A stretch of 64,000 nt of DNA from an uncultured Pelagibacteraceae bacterium (GTDB taxonomy: Bacteria > Pseudomonadota > Alphaproteobacteria > Pelagibacterales > Pelagibacteraceae). Numbering within the stretch: position 1 is the stretch's first letter; every line of letters begins with the position of its first letter. Where the stretch lies: positions 62,001-126,000 of the forward strand of contig CACAYM010000002.1 in NCBI GenBank assembly GCA_902536765.1, given 5' to 3'. Below the pieces are notes generated by a model. That model was not told the DNA's origin, did not search any database, and was given only the letters and a program-made list of their open reading frames with translations. Shown piece after piece: positions 6,160-57,951 of this stretch. A program made the position numbers and the translations under genes.

Positions 6160-6714
6160 TTACTTAATCCATTTAATATTACAGCCCATACTTGGGTGTT
6201 GCTCTTTTGGACCTTTACCTGTTTTTGAAATTAATTTTAACGCTTTAGATAGCTCACTTTCGCTATTATCCATAGGTTGTAAATCCTTCAGTTGTTTAAT
6301 TCGACCTCTGTACTGAAGTTCTAAATTTCCGTTATACGCAAAAAAATCTGGTGTGCAAACAGCATTATATACTTTCGCTACTTCTTGCGTTTCATCATGA
6401 AGGTATGGAAAAGAAAAGTTATTTTCTTTTGAAAAAGTAATCATATTTGCAAAAGAATCCTCTGGGTAATTTTTAACATCATTAGAACATATAGCAGCTG
6501 AGCTAATCCCAAATTTTTCTAAACTTTTACAGTCTTGAACTAAATCTTTAATTATCGCTTTTACATAAGGACAGTGATTGCAAATAAACATTATTAATGT
6601 TCCTTTTTCTCCTTTAATATCATTTAGAGAAATTATTTTGTTATCTGTAGATTTTAGTTTGAAATCTTCTGCCTTTTTCCCAAAATCGCATATTGGAGTT
6701 TTTGTAAGAGCCAT
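6160..6714 (-). CDS. Thioredoxin-fold redoxin (AhpC/TSA-like)
   Basis: A 184-residue cytoplasmic protein (no signal peptide) with a thioredoxin/peroxiredoxin fold. The active-site region is FICNHCPYVK, a CxxC pair at Cys45 and Cys48, and TPDFF supplies a cis-proline after Thr. This matches the small redoxin group often annotated as thioredoxin family protein; whether it reduces peroxides or protein disulfides is open. It is divergent from the gamma carbonic anhydrase gene with 20 bases between the two start codons. Confidence 0.8.
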   Translation of the reverse strand: MALTKTPICDFGKKAEDFKLKSTDNKIISLNDIKGEKGTLIMFICNHCPYVKAIIKDLVQDCKSLEKFGISSAAICSNDVKNYPEDSFANMITFSKENNFSFPYLHDETQEVAKVYNAVCTPDFFAYNGNLELQYRGRIKQLKDLQPMDNSESELSKALKLISKTGKGPKEQHPSMGCNIKWIK

Positions 6715-51329: not shown

Positions 51330-52391
51330 ATGCGAATTAAATCAAAAATCTCTTTTATATTATCACTAGTTTCAATATTATTTTACTTTTCTTCATTAAA
51401 AGCTGAAATAAAGGTAGTTGTATCAATAAAACCAATACATTCTCTAGTAAGCTATATTATGGATGGAGTTGGAACACCAGATTTAATAGTTGATGGTTAT
51501 AATTCTCCACATGGATTTAGTCTAAAACCATCTCACGCAAAAATGTTGCAAGAGGCAGATATGGTTGTTTACGTAGGAGAGGGAATTGAGGAATTTTTAG
51601 AAAAACCTTTAGAGTCTATATCAAAGAACTCTGTAAAATTTGAATTAATGGATCAAAGTGGAATAAAAAAATTGAAGTTTAGAGAAAGAAATATTTTTGG
51701 AGATCATGATGACCATGACGATCACGGCCATGGAAAAAAGAAAAAAGATGACCATGACGACCATGATGATCATGATAAGAAAGCTAAAAAAGAAGATCAC
51801 GATGACCACGATGATCACGATCATGATAAAAAAGCTAAAAAAGATGATCATGATGATCACGGACATGACGACCATGGACACGGACATGGTGAGTTTGACC
51901 CTCACATCTGGTTAGATCCAATGAATGCAAAAACTATTGTTAAAAAAGTTACAAACCAATTATCAAAATTAGATAAAGAAAACAGTGCAATCTATAAAGC
52001 AAATTCCAAGAAAGCTTTAAAAGAGTTAGATCAAATGATTAAAGAAGTTAAATCAGATGTCAACAAAGATGCTAAAGTTGTAGTATTTCATGATGCATAT
52101 CAATATTTCGAAAAAAGATTTAAAGTAAATATTATTGGTGCATTAACTGTAAATACAGACGTCTTACCAGGTGCAGAACAGCTTGCTGAAATCAGAGAAG
52201 TAATAGAACATGAAAAAGTAACATGTGTACTTTCAGAACCACAATTTAATCCAGACATTGTTGAAACAATTGCAAAAGATACAAATATAAATATGGGTGT
52301 TTTAGATCCTTTAGGCGCAACTTTGACTAAAGGAAAAACTTTATATTTTGATCTTATTAAAAATATTTCATTATCAATAAAGAATTGCTAG
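51330..52391 (+). CDS. znuA: Zinc ABC transporter periplasmic binding protein
   Basis: A 353-residue cluster A-I metal-binding protein. Residues 1-25 are a signal peptide ending in LKA. Zinc ligands expected from the family are His61 (SPHGF), His192 (DPHIWLDP), His254 (VVFHDAY) and possibly Asp326. Between residues 125 and 187 is a flexible loop with 17 His and 25 Asp, much longer than in E. coli ZnuA, probably gathering zinc. Cys299 and Cys353 may form the C-terminal disulfide seen in ZnuA. Divergent from znuCB-zur, under the twin Zur boxes. Confidence 0.95.
   Translation: MRIKSKISFILSLVSILFYFSSLKAEIKVVVSIKPIHSLVSYIMDGVGTPDLIVDGYNSPHGFSLKPSHAKMLQEADMVVYVGEGIEEFLEKPLESISKNSVKFELMDQSGIKKLKFRERNIFGDHDDHDDHGHGKKKKDDHDDHDDHDKKAKKEDHDDHDDHDHDKKAKKDDHDDHGHDDHGHGHGEFDPHIWLDPMNAKTIVKKVTNQLSKLDKENSAIYKANSKKALKELDQMIKEVKSDVNKDAKVVVFHDAYQYFEKRFKVNIIGALTVNTDVLPGAEQLAEIREVIEHEKVTCVLSEPQFNPDIVETIAKDTNINMGVLDPLGATLTKGKTLYFDLIKNISLSIKNC
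51702..51890 (+). repeat. In-frame tandem repeat encoding the His/Asp-rich loop of ZnuA
   Basis: Imperfect repeats of GATCAT/GACCAT units separated by Lys/Ala spacers (KKAKK twice), encoding the DHDDHDDHD-type loop. Such repeats change length easily by slippage; reading frames seen on the other strand and frame here are by-products of the repeat. Confidence 0.85.
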
Positions 52392-52460
52392 ATTTTACTC
52401 ACCTTTAAGTGGGCTATTTAGCACATAGAAAATTACCAAAATCATACTAATTCTTTATAT

Positions 52461-53147
52461 ATGAGTGATTTAAATACACATGTAGGACCAAAAAATTTTA
52501 GCGACAAATTTGCTTTAAATTTTACTAAGTTTTTGAGATTTCTTGCTGATACCTTCTTTAAAAAAAGATACGGACATAGAGCAGTTGTTTTGGAAACAGT
52601 TGCAGCTGTGCCTGGAATGGTTGCAGGTATGTTAATACACTTTAAATCTTTACGTAAGATGGAAGACGACAGAGGTTGGATCAAATTACTCTTAGATGAA
52701 GCAGAAAACGAAAGAATGCACTTAATGACTTTCATTCATATTGCAAAGCCCAATTTGCTTGAAAGAATTATTATTTTGATAGCCCAAGCAATATTTATAG
52801 TAACTTATTCATTAATTTACATAATTTCACAAAGAACTGCTCATAGAATTGTTGGGTATTTCGAAGAGGAAGCTGTAAGAAGTTATACCGAATATTTGCA
52901 CGAGCTCGAAACTGGAAAAATAAAAGACCAACCCGCCCCAGAGATAGCGATTAATTATTGGAACTTGCCACTTAACTCTACTTTAAAAGATGTTGTAAGG
53001 GTAATTAGAGATGACGAAGCCGGACATAGAGACGTCAATCATAACTTTGCAAATCTAATCGATAGCAGAAACACATTTAAAAAAAGCGAATATACCAAAG
53101 AATACAAAACTGAGAACAAAAGTTCAAAACAACAAGTTAAAAAGTGA
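52461..53147 (+). CDS. aox: Alternative oxidase (cyanide-insensitive quinol oxidase)
   Basis: A 228-residue diiron oxidase. All AOX iron-ligand motifs are present: LET (Glu45), NERMH (Glu84, His87), the FEEEA element (135-138, second Glu as ligand) and RDDEAGH (Glu186, His189). Two hydrophobic helices anchor it in the membrane. It oxidises ubiquinol and reduces oxygen to water without pumping protons. The shorter N-terminus lacks the regulatory Cys of plant enzymes. It overlaps the cupredoxin GTG by four bases. Confidence 0.93.
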   Translation: MSDLNTHVGPKNFSDKFALNFTKFLRFLADTFFKKRYGHRAVVLETVAAVPGMVAGMLIHFKSLRKMEDDRGWIKLLLDEAENERMHLMTFIHIAKPNLLERIIILIAQAIFIVTYSLIYIISQRTAHRIVGYFEEEAVRSYTEYLHELETGKIKDQPAPEIAINYWNLPLNSTLKDVVRVIRDDEAGHRDVNHNFANLIDSRNTFKKSEYTKEYKTENKSSKQQVKK

Positions 53148-53650
53148 AAAAAATTTTTATAATTTCATTTGTATTAATTTTAATAAATTCTTTCTCATTA
53201 GCTGATAAAAATATGAAAATTGGATCTAAGGGGAAACTCTCAGATGTAACAAGAACAATTAAAGTGAAAATGTATGATAATTACTATGAGCCAAATTCAT
53301 TTAATATAAAAAAAGGTGAAACAATCAAATTTGAAGTTAGTAATTTGGGTGAACTCGTACATGAATTTAATATAGCAAATGCAATGATGCATCTTAAACA
53401 TCAGCCAGAAATGGAAAAAATGGTTGAGAACGAAATATTATTAGGTGATAAAATTGACAAGGATCAAATGCATAAAATGGCTGCAATGGATAAATCTATG
53501 GGTCATTCTCATAGTAATAGTGTATTGTTAGCTCCTAAAGAAAAAGGAATTATAATTTGGAAGTTTGAAAATGCTGTTGATATAGAGATTGCATGCAATG
53601 TTCCTGGTCATTATCAAGCTGGCATGATTGCAGCAGTTAATCTAGACTAA
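53144..53650 (+). CDS. Cupredoxin (plastocyanin-like copper protein)
   Basis: A 168-residue periplasmic copper protein starting at GTG 53144 with a signal peptide to residue 20 (SLA). The type I copper site is complete: His73 in LVHEF, Cys151, His156 and Met161 in CNVPGHYQAGM. Between these lies a Met/His-rich stretch (81-123: MMHLKH, QMHKMAAM, MGHSHS) of the kind that binds copper in transport or detoxification. It may shuttle electrons or copper near the alternative oxidase, with which it is translationally coupled (GTGA). Confidence 0.88.
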   Translation: MKKIFIISFVLILINSFSLADKNMKIGSKGKLSDVTRTIKVKMYDNYYEPNSFNIKKGETIKFEVSNLGELVHEFNIANAMMHLKHQPEMEKMVENEILLGDKIDKDQMHKMAAMDKSMGHSHSNSVLLAPKEKGIIIWKFENAVDIEIACNVPGHYQAGMIAAVNLD

Positions 53651-53662
53651 AGTTTTTTAACA

Positions 53663-54106
53663 ATGAGTTCTGAAGTGATTAAATTTAATTGGAATTGCAA
53701 ACATACTTGGAGAAGAAGCGCTAAAAATACCGCTTGGTGTTTACTTGGTTGTGGAATTGGAGACTTTGGAACAATTTTATTTTTTCAAATAACAAAAATA
53801 CCATTTCCTGTTCTAGGAATAATGACACTTGCTATCATTAATGGATTGATAACAAGTATTATTTTAGAAACTATAATTTTGTTACAACAAAATTTTAAAT
53901 TTTCTAATGCTTTAAAAACAGCTTTAGGAATGAGCTTTATCTCCATGATCAGCATGGAAATTGCAATGAATTTAACTGATTATCTACTTACTGGGGGCGC
54001 AATACTTACATGGTGGGTGGTGCCAATTATGCTTATGGCAGGATTCTTAACCCCTTGGCCTTATAATTATTGGAGATTAAAGAAGTTCAATATTAGTTGT
54101 CACTAA
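53663..54106 (+). CDS. DUF4396-domain membrane protein
   Basis: A 147-residue inner-membrane protein with about four helices. W-rich N-terminus and GCGIGDFGTILF, then ETIILL, SMEIAMNLTDYLL and PWPYNYWRLKK match the DUF4396 family. Members often neighbour copper-handling genes such as cupredoxins and P-type ATPases, and the cupredoxin 12 bases upstream fits; the function is unknown. Confidence 0.78.
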   Translation: MSSEVIKFNWNCKHTWRRSAKNTAWCLLGCGIGDFGTILFFQITKIPFPVLGIMTLAIINGLITSIILETIILLQQNFKFSNALKTALGMSFISMISMEIAMNLTDYLLTGGAILTWWVVPIMLMAGFLTPWPYNYWRLKKFNISCH

Positions 54107-54109
54107 TAT

Positions 54110-55831
54110 TTAATTAGATAGCCAAATAGTTTGAAAAGGATCTAAAGTAATATTATTTTTACTAACTGTAGTACCGATTATTAATTCTTTATACTTTTTA
54201 TTTGTTGGTTGAATTTTAATAGTTTGAGTTTTTGAACTTAAGTTTGAAATACACATAACAGTTTTTTTTTTATCTAAGCTTATCCTTTTAAATGCGAATA
54301 TCTTTGGTCCAAGGTTCATGGTTTTTCTTAATGCATTAGGATGAAAAGCTTTATTTTTTCGCTTGATATTTAATAAATTAGTTATTTCTTCGTAAATTAA
54401 ATAATGCTTTGAGTTCTTATTTTTTAATAATTTATTCAAACGTTCTGCACTCCATTTATATCTATTTAAATCTCTCTTATTATTTGAAATAATGTACTTA
54501 TTAATGTCATTTGAAGTACCAAACATTGAATTAAAATAAACTGCTGGAATACCCTCAAAAGAGATCATTATTGCATGAGCACACAGATACCTTGCGTAAT
54601 GATACTTTCCTTTAGGATCGGTATCAGTTTTTTGAAATGCATTAAATAAAGTAATATTAGCTTCATATACCTTTTTTGATTTTCCTTGGACTTTTCTAAA
54701 CGAAAATTCTCCACCATTCTTTTTAAGCCTTTTAAACATTTTATTGATGGCATCTTTATTTAAAAGACCTTCAACTGGCCTCATACCAATCCCGTCATGT
54801 GATGCAATAAAGTTTAGATAACTATTACCTAATTTATTTTGTGGCAATTTTTTACTCCAAGAAGTTATTTTTCTACTATCTTCAAATAATAGTGAATTAA
54901 CCAAAAGGGGAGGTAATGAAAAATTATAAATCCAGTTTGCCTCATCATTATTACCAAAGTAACTAATATTTTCTTTTTCAGGTAAGTTTGTTTCAGTTAC
55001 AATTATTGCTGGTTTGTTTAAGCTATTACAAACAATTCTTAATATTTTAATGATTTCGTGAGTTTGTTTTAAATTAATGCATTTAGTTCCACTTTCTTTC
55101 CAAAGGTAAGCTATAGCATCCAATCTAAATATATTTACTCCATGATTAATCAAATTAATTATAATTTTGATAAATCTAATTAAAACTTTTGGATTCTTAA
55201 AATTTAAATCAATCTGATCGTTACTAAAGGTTCGCCAAAGATATCTTTTTTCACCGAAAATATTCACTTTCTTTAATAAACGATGTTCTCTTGGCCTAAC
55301 TACATTTTTAGAATTAAATTTTTTATTAACAGTAAAAAAATAATTTTTTCCCGGTGAATTATTTCTTAAATAGTTTTTAAACCAAAGACCCCTAGATGAT
55401 GAATGATTAATTACAACATCAGCCATAATAAAACTATTTTTTGAAAAACTCTTAATATCACTCCATTTACCTAATCTTGGATCAATTTTATAATGATCCT
55501 TAACAGCAAAACCACTATCGCTACTTGATGGATAAAAGGGTAGAAAGTGCACAGAATTGAAGGATTTACTCAAGTATTTTTTATGAAAGCTTTTAAACTC
55601 AATGATAGATTTATTTGTTTTTGTACCTAAAACACTATCTCCATAGCAAATTAAGAGTGATGTTCTTTCTGACAAATTAAAATTTTTCTTTGAATTTTTT
55701 ATTTTATTAGACTTAGTAATGCTTTTAACTATGTCTTCAGTGAAACTTAGTAATTCTTTATTACTAAAGATTGGTTTATAAATTTTTCTTAATTTAAGAT
55801 TAATTTTATTTCGGATTTCTGAGGAATTCAT
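54110..55831 (-). CDS. GH13_18 sucrose-phosphorylase-like enzyme, probable glucosylglycerate phosphorylase
   Basis: A 573-residue GH13 enzyme. Catalytic regions are DVVINH (138-143), nucleophile Asp238 in FRLDA, acid/base Glu280 in VTETN, and ASHDG with His345-Asp346; SHDGIGMRP is a hallmark of the GH13_18 phosphorylases. The group includes sucrose phosphorylase and glucosylglycerate phosphorylase, which splits glucosylglycerate with phosphate into glucose-1-phosphate and glycerate. The preceding two genes synthesise glucosylglycerate, so that substrate is favoured over sucrose. One-base overlap with gpgS. Confidence 0.82.
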   Translation of the reverse strand: MNSSEIRNKINLKLRKIYKPIFSNKELLSFTEDIVKSITKSNKIKNSKKNFNLSERTSLLICYGDSVLGTKTNKSIIEFKSFHKKYLSKSFNSVHFLPFYPSSSDSGFAVKDHYKIDPRLGKWSDIKSFSKNSFIMADVVINHSSSRGLWFKNYLRNNSPGKNYFFTVNKKFNSKNVVRPREHRLLKKVNIFGEKRYLWRTFSNDQIDLNFKNPKVLIRFIKIIINLINHGVNIFRLDAIAYLWKESGTKCINLKQTHEIIKILRIVCNSLNKPAIIVTETNLPEKENISYFGNNDEANWIYNFSLPPLLVNSLLFEDSRKITSWSKKLPQNKLGNSYLNFIASHDGIGMRPVEGLLNKDAINKMFKRLKKNGGEFSFRKVQGKSKKVYEANITLFNAFQKTDTDPKGKYHYARYLCAHAIMISFEGIPAVYFNSMFGTSNDINKYIISNNKRDLNRYKWSAERLNKLLKNKNSKHYLIYEEITNLLNIKRKNKAFHPNALRKTMNLGPKIFAFKRISLDKKKTVMCISNLSSKTQTIKIQPTNKKYKELIIGTTVSKNNITLDPFQTIWLSN

Positions 55832-57051
55832 TATTTATGTTTTTTATTATCCTCATCAACTGCATGTTTTAATCTTTCTAGAAAATCTGGTATTGCGCTT
55901 TTAACTCTACTCCATGTTGGTATAAAGGGTGTATCCATTGGATTTTTAAAAAATGACTCTCCTGCCTTCATTATATTAAGAGCAAACAATTCAACTGCCT
56001 TTTCCTCAGTATGAGAGTCAAACTTTAAGCCGTTCATTTCAGCATCACTTCTGTATGTATCTATTAAATCTAATGCAGATCTATAGTAAGTTGCTTTTAA
56101 AGATCTAAAAGTTTCAAGACTGAATGAATTTCCTTGTGTCGCAAGTTTTCTAATCAATGTTTTAATAATATCTATCGACATTCTCGAAAGTCCTTTTTTA
56201 TCATCACTAATTGAAAGTTCTTGGTGTTTGTGGTCATAAGTATCGGCTAGATCAACTTGACAAACATTATTTGGAGAAAAATTTCTCTGCATTTCAGATA
56301 AAACACCAACCTCAATACCCCAATCCGATGATATTCTTAACTCTGGCAATATATTTCTTCTAAAAGAAAATTCTCCAGCTAATGGATACTTAAATGATTT
56401 CATAAATTCTAAATAATCACTTCTACCAATTGTTTTTTCTAAAGCTGTTATTAATGGAAACACAAGTAATCTTGCAACCCTGCCATTCATTTTTCCTTGA
56501 GCTATCCTTGGGTAATATCCCTTGCAAAATTCAAAGTTAAATAGTGGATTAACCACAGGATAAAATAATTTAGCTAGCATCCTTCGATCATACGTTTTAA
56601 TATCGCAATCATGTAGAGCAACTGATCTTGCCTCATCTCTTGCAATACACATTCCAAGGCAATACCAAACGTTTCTTCCCTTACCAAGTTCATTAGGCGC
56701 AAGGTCTTTTTTCTTTAATTCATTATGAAGTTTTTTTAGCTTAGGTCCGTCATTCCATAAAATTGAGAAAGGAGTTTTGAGCTTTTTAAAGAAATTATGG
56801 GCTTTATCCGCTTGTTTTTTATTTGCTCTATCTAGTCCAATAATTATGTGATTGAGATAATTTATTTTACTTATTTCACTGACAATTTTTGGTAATGCAT
56901 TTCCTTCAAGTTCCGAATAAAGACTAGGAAGAATTAATTCCATTTTTCTTTCCTTAGAAAATTTTAATAAATCTTTTTCTATATCTTTAGTAGATTTAGT
57001 CCCAAAATCATGCAAACTTGAAATAATACCGTTTTGGGAAAAATCGCTCAT
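55831..57051 (-). CDS. gpgS: Glucosyl-3-phosphoglycerate synthase-like glycosyltransferase
   Basis: A 406-residue GT-A glycosyltransferase. The metal-binding DxD is Asp148-Cys-Asp150 in LHDCDIKTY; GKGRNVWYCLG precedes it as the nucleotide-sugar site, and SSDWGIEVGVLSE is typical of GpgS/MpgS enzymes. Transfer of glucose from an NDP-glucose to 3-phosphoglycerate is the likely reaction, the first step to the compatible solute glucosylglycerate. A mannosyl variant remains possible. It lies between the phosphatase and phosphorylase genes. Confidence 0.82.
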   Translation of the reverse strand: MSDFSQNGIISSLHDFGTKSTKDIEKDLLKFSKERKMELILPSLYSELEGNALPKIVSEISKINYLNHIIIGLDRANKKQADKAHNFFKKLKTPFSILWNDGPKLKKLHNELKKKDLAPNELGKGRNVWYCLGMCIARDEARSVALHDCDIKTYDRRMLAKLFYPVVNPLFNFEFCKGYYPRIAQGKMNGRVARLLVFPLITALEKTIGRSDYLEFMKSFKYPLAGEFSFRRNILPELRISSDWGIEVGVLSEMQRNFSPNNVCQVDLADTYDHKHQELSISDDKKGLSRMSIDIIKTLIRKLATQGNSFSLETFRSLKATYYRSALDLIDTYRSDAEMNGLKFDSHTEEKAVELFALNIMKAGESFFKNPMDTPFIPTWSRVKSAIPDFLERLKHAVDEDNKKHK

Positions 57052-57059
57052 AATAAATT

Positions 57060-57866
57060 TTAATCCGTTTGTTTAATTTTTTCTAGCGCAATTTTGACAA
57101 CTTCTTCCCATCCAAATGGAGCAGATTGTTTTGAAACTATGCAATTATTTATATTTATTGGCTCCATGAGAAATTGATCGTTAAATACAAGACACGCAAT
57201 ATTACTATTTCTTAACATATCTAGATCATTATAATTGTCTCCAACACCAACTATTTTAACTTCATTTTCAATTTTTTTAATCATTTTAATAACTCTATTC
57301 ATTGCTTTAACTTTACTTACATTATCGCAAATATTTATTACTCGACCACCCTCATGGAGAGACAAACCAATAGTTTTTACAATCTTAAATAAATCTTTTT
57401 TCTGTTCACCATTTCCCTTAAATAAAATAGGTGTAGAATAGCTTCTATTAAGAACATTTTTTAAGCTTTTATCCGATAATCCAAAAATTTCCTTTTGTAT
57501 TTTTTTTTCCATTTTTGTTATTATTTTACATTTAGATCTTAAGTTTTCAGGTATTTTTTTTTGAAAAACTTTAAATGTAATTTCCTTTTCTCTACTTAAA
57601 ACTATATTATTTGGAAAGTTTTTATTAATATTATCCAAGCCAAATATTGCTGAACCATTTTCAGAAATAAAGGGTAAATTTAAATCTAATTTTTTATTAA
57701 AATCTTCAATCTCGACTTGGGTTTTACTAGTATTAGGAATTATGATTATTCCCTTGCTTGTAAGATCTTTTACGTATTCTTTTATTCCATCAAATTCAAA
57801 AGTATCTCTATGCAAAAGAGTACCATCCAAATCAGTAAAAATAATTATTGGAGATTTTTTATTCAT
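57060..57866 (-). CDS. gpgP: Glucosyl-3-phosphoglycerate phosphatase (HAD, MpgP family)
   Basis: A 268-residue HAD-IIB phosphatase. Motif I FTDLDGTL has Asp11 and Asp13; GVGDNYNDLDML supplies the late metal-binding acidic residues. The cap and length match mannosyl/glucosyl-3-phosphoglycerate phosphatases. It would dephosphorylate GpgS product to glucosylglycerate. Start placed at ATG 57866; a TTG at 57875 would add three residues. First gene of the three-gene operon, eight bases from gpgS. Confidence 0.82.
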   Translation of the reverse strand: MNKKSPIIIFTDLDGTLLHRDTFEFDGIKEYVKDLTSKGIIIIPNTSKTQVEIEDFNKKLDLNLPFISENGSAIFGLDNINKNFPNNIVLSREKEITFKVFQKKIPENLRSKCKIITKMEKKIQKEIFGLSDKSLKNVLNRSYSTPILFKGNGEQKKDLFKIVKTIGLSLHEGGRVINICDNVSKVKAMNRVIKMIKKIENEVKIVGVGDNYNDLDMLRNSNIACLVFNDQFLMEPININNCIVSKQSAPFGWEEVVKIALEKIKQTD

Positions 57867-57951
57867 AATTTTCAATTTTGTGTTTTATTTTTTAATTTTA
57901 TAAAATAAATTAGTAAAATTACATATATTAAAATTATTTAATTTAACAAAA

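Follow-up and report, generated by a model that had tools for sequence, protein, structure and literature searches.

The window, by which we mean the whole 64,000-nucleotide stretch of DNA that was analysed, comes from a Pelagibacterales genome (1.14 Mb, 20 contigs, completeness 92.8%) and contains three consecutive genes coding for an alternative oxidase (AOX), a CopI-like periplasmic cupredoxin and a DUF4396 membrane protein (Table 1). Their placement on one strand, first proposed from the letters alone, is borne out by the open reading frames and their domain matches, and so is the translational coupling of the first two: the GTG start of the CopI-like gene (53144) lies within the AOX stop codon (GTGA), giving a 4-base overlap, and its end is separated from the DUF4396 start by 12 bases. 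The upstream neighbour of AOX is znuA, from which znuC, znuB and a Zur-like gene diverge, and downstream of DUF4396 lies a convergent alpha-amylase-type gene. The three genes probably constitute one operon transcribed from the upstream region of AOX itself, which would place them under shared regulation. The ZnuA protein of the window contains a long loop of HDD/HDH repeats (51697-51905) that is probably metal-binding. On the other side, the region 54110-57875 codes for the amylase-type enzyme (PF00128), a protein that matches no Pfam family and a HAD-type hydrolase (PF08282), which we take to be possible compatible-solute genes of the glucosylglycerate type.

Table 1. Features of the AOX-CopI-DUF4396 locus (positions in the window)
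Feature	Position	Strand	Basis
AOX (alternative oxidase), 228 aa, predicted diiron quinol oxidase	52461..53147	+	PF01786 E 3.3e-82; alignment with trypanosome AOX
CopI-like periplasmic cupredoxin, 168 aa, GTG start	53144..53650	+	PF13473/PF00127 over cut-off; NF051440 145 bits
DUF4396 inner-membrane protein, 147 aa	53663..54106	+	PF14342 E 1.3e-37; model pLDDT 83
znuA, upstream neighbour anchoring the locus, outside the module	51330..52391	+	PF01297; znuA-CopI-DUF4396 order without AOX elsewhere
Conserved element GCTATTTAGCACATAGA, 48 bases 5' of the AOX start; candidate promoter or regulator site of the operon	52413..52429	+	

The window AOX matches PF01786 with 275.7 bits (curated cut-off 22.7) and can be aligned with the trypanosome AOX over nearly the full domain; the two share both ExxH motifs and the remaining conserved stretches with Glu. 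All four stretches, namely LET, ENERMH, EEEAV and DEAxH, are retained in this alignment and presumably supply the four Glu and two His ligands of the diiron centre. The protein is best regarded as a putative quinol oxidase with predicted cyanide resistance. AOX needs neither copper nor cytochromes and is unaffected by the poisons of haem oxidases. One AOX gene (L157, at G125:C49:39121-39723) is interrupted by an internal TAA stop, sits on a long branch and is possibly decaying. No title on the AOX-CopI-DUF4396 arrangement was found in the literature on AOX in SAR11/Pelagibacterales, the search lying mostly outside the subscription journals, and the sole "alternative oxidases" in the accessible text of PMC8879329 are cytochrome bd types.

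Both the Cupredoxin_1 and the Copper-bind profiles score above cut-off on the second ORF. Its best NCBIfam match is CopI (NF051440), at 145.2 bits against an equivalog cut-off of 280 bits; because the score is about half of this cut-off, which is not reached, we call the protein CopI-like only. It has a predicted N-terminal signal peptide, and the structure model (pLDDT 91) finds the cupredoxin AcoP as the first-ranked solved fold in Foldseek. The Met/His-rich loop noticed at the outset is real: residues 82-123 contain MHLKHQPEMEKM...MHKMAAMDKSMGHSH, and in the internal His/Met segment MHLKHQPEMEKM H86 and M90 are invariant in all 35 aligned homologues. The same holds (35/35) for H73, C151, H156 and M161, which we take to be the type-1 copper ligands of a His-Cys-His-Met site. 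The N-terminal His-rich region of CopI is absent from the window protein in the 35-sequence alignment; this region is described as variable in the available portion of PMC13308877, where a role of the internal His/Met segment is also described. The accessible parts of the Rubrivivax studies present CopI as a copper-tolerance protein (PMC7558416; PMC7283390; PMC13308877), proposed to capture Cu(I) with its His/Met segment and to oxidise the ion at the cupredoxin centre.

The third protein matches PF14342 with 129.8 bits (cut-off 27), and its structure model (pLDDT 83) displays about four transmembrane helices. An alignment of 44 DUF4396 sequences, from which eight long or fused sequences of the phylum are omitted (L055, L056, L057, L058, L064, L071, L073 and L074), shows full invariance of C26, G29, G33, S94, W117, P133 and N135 and near-invariance of C30, D34 and M102. 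In L057, L058 and L069 an Asp stands in for the second Cys of the pair, and the Cys motif is not retained in the divergent L073 and L074. The window protein represents a short form, and the extra N-terminal helices and His-rich loop belong to the long form of the family. One genome from a different class of the phylum (G464, L068) has a short form too, and a search for the short form on plasmids returned no match. Comparisons of the model with TRIC (5wuf; VIA-align Z 9.3, rmsd 4.1 over 108 residues) and with the Rnf/Nqr subunits RnfA/E-NqrD/E (Z 4.5-7.0) fall below the level trusted for helical bundles, and Foldseek gave no match at E <= 0.001. In the accessible literature DUF4396 receives a passing mention only.

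Copies of the AOX-CopI-DUF4396 arrangement occur at two unrelated chromosomal positions. The first is the locus of the window, where the order znuA-AOX-CopI-DUF4396-amylase is shared with L275. At this locus a flavodoxin gene is placed between AOX and CopI in L272, and L141, L273 and L274 have znuA-CopI-DUF4396 without AOX; alignment detected no AOX remnant at the znuA locus of L141. The second position lies beside hisD (PF00815) and harbours AOX-CopI-DUF4396 in L131, L134, L135, L277, L281-L283, L285 and L288, with variants that include an extra cytochrome c (L139) or another gene (L333). In other genomes the hisD locus instead contains AOX-MsrB, AOX-flavodoxin-MsrB or AOX alone, and AOX is found there without CopI in L147, L151, L156, L158, L160 and L162. 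The window family has 19 AOX-positive genomes; in the 17 whose downstream genes were read, AOX is followed by CopI (5), by MsrB, either directly or after a flavodoxin-type gene (4), or by neither of these (8). MsrB also precedes the pair itself, as MsrB-CopI-DUF4396 in L336. In all, MsrB or flavodoxin genes are seen in related operons of L336, L272, L147, L151, L158 and L160. The MsrB that replaces CopI in the AOX operons of L147, L151, L158 and L160 bears an export-like signal at its N-terminus.

Across 147 Pelagibacterales genomes, AOX is present in 59, DUF4396 in 115 and a CopI-like protein in 31, the latter counted at E <= 0.001, with none of the matches above the curated cut-off. AOX lies immediately 5' of CopI in five of the 147 (the window genome, G115, G128, G132 and G146), and DUF4396 comes next in four of these five, a cytochrome c intervening in G115. 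CopI directly precedes DUF4396 in 18/32 CopI loci, or 19/32 if the interrupted pair of G115 is added. A further view comes from the best 80 of 459 DUF4396 loci retrieved with an alignment query, all of them from Pelagibacterales and two at a contig edge, a set that overlaps the 147 genomes in part (e.g. L288 and G132): AOX is found within three genes upstream in nine, with the exact order AOX-CopI-DUF4396 in seven, a flavodoxin gene after AOX in L272, and a larger gap with an extra gene in L333. With L272 and L333 left out, the AOX-CopI junctions at the two loci range from -8 to +9 bases (overlap or gap). The sequence-only reading had looked to co-occurrence of the three families above expectation, and among the 94 genomes of the window family this is found weakly: AOX and CopI occur together in 9 (expected 5.9, one-sided p 0.07), AOX and DUF4396 in 18 (expected 15.2, p 0.06), and CopI and DUF4396 in 26 (expected 23.1, p 0.09). 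The presence of the three genes is thus weakly linked, and the signal of linkage resides in gene order. In a 378-genome sample of the phylum, AOX is near CopI or DUF4396 in 0/15 AOX genomes from outside Pelagibacterales, and no CopI directly adjoining DUF4396 was seen outside the order.

The separate assortment of AOX, CopI and DUF4396 leads us to reject a fixed three-gene cassette; CopI-DUF4396 is the stable element, which AOX joins in some lineages only. Co-transfer as one unit was likewise considered, and the three gene trees neither reject nor show a common origin: the window CopI is sister to that of L141 (100/98), whose locus is without AOX, and the AOXs of other cassettes are nearest to the window AOX by path without forming a supported clade. 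Of the earlier idea of a copper-handling pair tied to AOX, the pair itself stands up, since it recurs in CopI loci and its DUF4396 member has copper and respiratory links elsewhere (see below), but a tie to AOX is not supported, the junction being seen in 5/59 of the AOX genomes and 5/31 of the CopI genomes, missing from L141, L273 and L274, and unseen in the 15 AOX genomes sampled outside the order. The figure of 5/59 favours a reading in which the three genes are incidental neighbours, with CopI-DUF4396 a mobile copper module, AOX an unrelated accessory, both settled wherever streamlined genomes tolerate insertion, and the operon a by-product; the AOX-free znuA locus of L141 with no remnant, the hisD-locus AOXs without CopI and the modest co-occurrence of AOX with CopI point the same way. 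Against this, two different loci have the AOX-CopI junction, with a spacing of -8 to +9 bases, the genes that replace CopI (MsrB and flavodoxin) fit a stress theme, and the trees do not decide on a common origin. On balance we consider an incidental association somewhat unlikely.

The neighbourhoods of DUF4396 provide further clues to its function. Among the best 80 of 459 loci, a set biased to close relatives because all of it comes from Pelagibacterales, the adjoining same-strand gene on the upstream side codes for CopI in 28 cases and for a c-type cytochrome in 20. The cytochrome that fills the CopI position in these 20 loci (cluster c27, e.g. L278:4537-5001) is His-rich, with HSHYPIT near the mature start and a GTGHTWHH motif, and is possibly metal-binding. 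We also considered a cytochrome lineage common to c27 and the cytochromes associated with DUF4396 on plasmids and in fusions, and set it aside: the SAR11 protein shows distant similarity to these, with E about 1e-5 at best, as against about 1e-31 for the plasmid and fused cytochromes with each other. Outside the order, DUF4396 is fused to 1) multicopper oxidases, through a His/Met-rich linker (L057:226-2142 and L058:1273-3225); and 2) a cytochrome c, in a protein encoded at the end of a COX1-COX3 operon (L064:1492-2832, L239). On plasmids, 19 annotated regions of 26 records could be surveyed (H14 being without annotation, and H3, H4, H22, H24, H25 and H26 left out). Terminal-oxidase genes lie within 5 kb of DUF4396 in six of these (H7, H9, H12, H13, H16 and H19), and a clear copper-resistance operon with multicopper oxidase, CopB and cytochrome c accompanies it in two (H1 and H2). 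Another two are loosely metal-linked, through RND efflux and DUF305 genes (H5) or DUF305 (H23), the latter family having a metal link as we assume, and nine have neither oxidase nor copper genes. Pooled chromosomal neighbourhoods are heterogeneous, and many show neither oxidase nor copper genes: the families listed for 150 neighbours from 21 loci contain only two multicopper oxidases, a single COX1 and a single P-type ATPase (the 25 commonest of 98 and 95 in the pooled scans, which used 150/151 neighbours and dropped ORFs of <70 or >900 aa).

One recurrent neighbour raises the alternative that sulfide, persulfide or nitric oxide, and not copper, is the signal common to the operon. In 29 of the best 80 of 459 DUF4396 loci a metallo-beta-lactamase (MBL)-fold gene (PF00753), which we take to be ETHE1-like, is located within three genes upstream, and in many relatives it is accompanied by a thioredoxin; at the hisD locus a member of the same cluster precedes AOX by three or four genes in L131, L134, L135 and L151. 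The insensitivity of AOX to haem-oxidase poisons would suit such a role, and AOX reportedly raises sulfide tolerance in a study of Ciona. However, in those 29 loci the MBL-fold gene is encoded on the opposite strand, no such gene accompanies AOX in the window or in nine further AOX loci checked, and the fusions of DUF4396 are to copper and cytochrome proteins, not to sulfur enzymes, making a sulfide or nitric oxide signal improbable.

Upstream of AOX at both loci there is an element, such as ATTTAGCACATAG or CAATTTAGCCCCATTGG, positioned about 47 bases before the start. A matrix trained on 10 AOX sites places 17/23 distinct AOX upstreams over the 95% level of the background, a partly circular result that misses six; applied to CopI, it recovers 5/14 non-redundant upstreams over the 95% level and two over the 99% level (p 4e-4), these 14 being interrelated and mostly of one locus type. 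Other top-scoring upstreams belong to an MsrB gene and a DUF4396 gene, with the element at the same distance from the start, and the best background site precedes an unrelated gene by 18 bases. Three thioredoxin-type gene upstreams score as well; they are not independent, because their intergenic regions are shared with a divergent CopI. In the reverse test a matrix trained on CopI identifies 3/16 AOX upstreams (p 0.04, weak), and a genome-wide scan for the pattern shows no excess, with 358 sites versus 331 in the reversed control. Of the 20 top sites of the window, two fall within 60 bases of an ORF start: that of AOX, at 48 bases, and another at position 6680, at 55 bases. A general scan for sigma-70 promoters and terminators gave no excess, and a hairpin before AOX has a z of -2.0. 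Given the weak reverse test and the lack of a genome-wide excess, a promoter element shared by AOX and CopI is suggestive only.

Copper is low in open-ocean waters, which, like the position of the window operon behind zinc-uptake genes and a Zur-like regulator, favours the view that AOX replaces a copper-dependent oxidase when copper is scarce and that CopI-DUF4396 scavenges or imports the metal. In the accessible text of PMC9035749 AOX is indeed up 4.3-fold in copper-limited Naegleria gruberi, and Candida is said to behave alike, but copper limitation is very improbable as the explanation here, for CopI is presented in the available parts of PMC7558416 and PMC7283390 as a tolerance protein induced by excess copper, it is accompanied by detoxification genes in 4/4 loci scanned outside SAR11, and the hisD-locus copies are without the znu neighbourhood. 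The equipment of these genomes is instructive as well. No P-type ATPase scores over the Pfam cut-off in any of the 147 Pelagibacterales genomes, as opposed to 14/14 controls, and two sub-threshold matches have internal stops (G041 and G051). SAR11 are likewise without copA, with copZ in 54% of genomes, in the accessible portion of Hogle et al. 2016 (PMC4771312). The window genome codes for one COX1. SAR11-type cells count among the most numerous bacteria of the ocean, and the CopI-DUF4396 pair is a concrete candidate for copper handling in some of them, given that they lack the usual copper pump.

In light of these contextual connections, we propose that the three genes act as a modular stress operon against periplasmic copper damage, and probably oxidant damage too, an explanation to which we assign a probability of roughly 0.4 and which is the best of those considered; the gene identities, the junction, its recurrence and its modularity are observed, and the functional steps and the shared regulation are inferred. 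AOX would oxidise ubiquinol without copper, haem, the bc1 complex or cytochrome c, so that electron flow could persist even with cytochrome c or the haem-copper oxidase damaged by Cu(I) or oxidants. CopI would take Cu(I) on its His/Met segment and either oxidise or buffer it at the type-1 site. DUF4396, with its four helices and conserved Cys, usually a pair, might be the membrane partner of the adjoining periplasmic carrier, which would be CopI in the window and a c-type cytochrome in many relatives; that it receives electrons or copper from this carrier is suggested by the exchange of partners and by the fusions. Direct transfer from CopI to quinone is uphill by the usual potentials, and for this reason we do not propose that AOX drains CopI. 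Evidence against the proposal comes from the slight excess of co-occurrence, the rarity of the AOX-CopI junction within the order and its absence from the 15 AOX genomes sampled outside it, the many DUF4396 neighbourhoods, nine of the 19 plasmid regions included, with neither oxidase nor copper genes, a Cys pair that is not universal, and a promoter pattern without genome-wide excess. The initial suggestion that the cassette protects respiration when copper is toxic or missing survives as a possibility, in that AOX may offer a copper-free exit for electrons, but the link to AOX is occasional. Overall, the arrangement is real, recurrent and modular, and the idea of a copper pair is favoured.

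A bolder extension of the stress-operon proposal, which we regard as unlikely, is that DUF4396 serves exchangeable periplasmic one-electron carriers as a hitherto unrecognised redox or copper partner in the membrane, and that CopI-DUF4396 is a main copper-detoxification device of SAR11, in which no P-type ATPase was found. The slot beside DUF4396 would then be filled by a cupredoxin or c-type cytochrome, or by a fused cytochrome or multicopper oxidase; CopI would oxidise Cu(I), and DUF4396 would accept either the electron or the copper at the membrane. If this were true, a single operon of AOX and the pair would remove copper and also sustain quinol oxidation during impairment of the copper-sensitive branch. 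The exchange of cupredoxin for cytochrome c next to DUF4396 makes its role testable.

Parts of this operon have counterparts in well-described systems. The window AOX is like the mitochondrial-type AOX of trypanosomes (PDB 3vv9/9m2a) in its near-full domain and diiron motifs; unlike it, the window protein is bacterial and, in a few lineages, translationally coupled to a cupredoxin. With the CopI of Rubrivivax gelatinosus and Pseudomonas (NF051440, NF047895) the window cupredoxin shares the signal peptide, the single cupredoxin domain, the His-Cys-His-Met site and the conserved internal His/Met segment, but it differs in having no N-terminal His-rich region, no adjacent multicopper oxidase (MCO)/copA gene and DUF4396 as its partner. 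Finally, the CopI component is held in common with the CopA(MCO)-CopB-CopI copper-resistance operons of proteobacteria, and MCO and CopB adjoin CopI in 4/4 loci scanned (of 19 CopI regions) outside SAR11, whereas in the window MCO and CopB are not adjacent and their place is taken by AOX and DUF4396.
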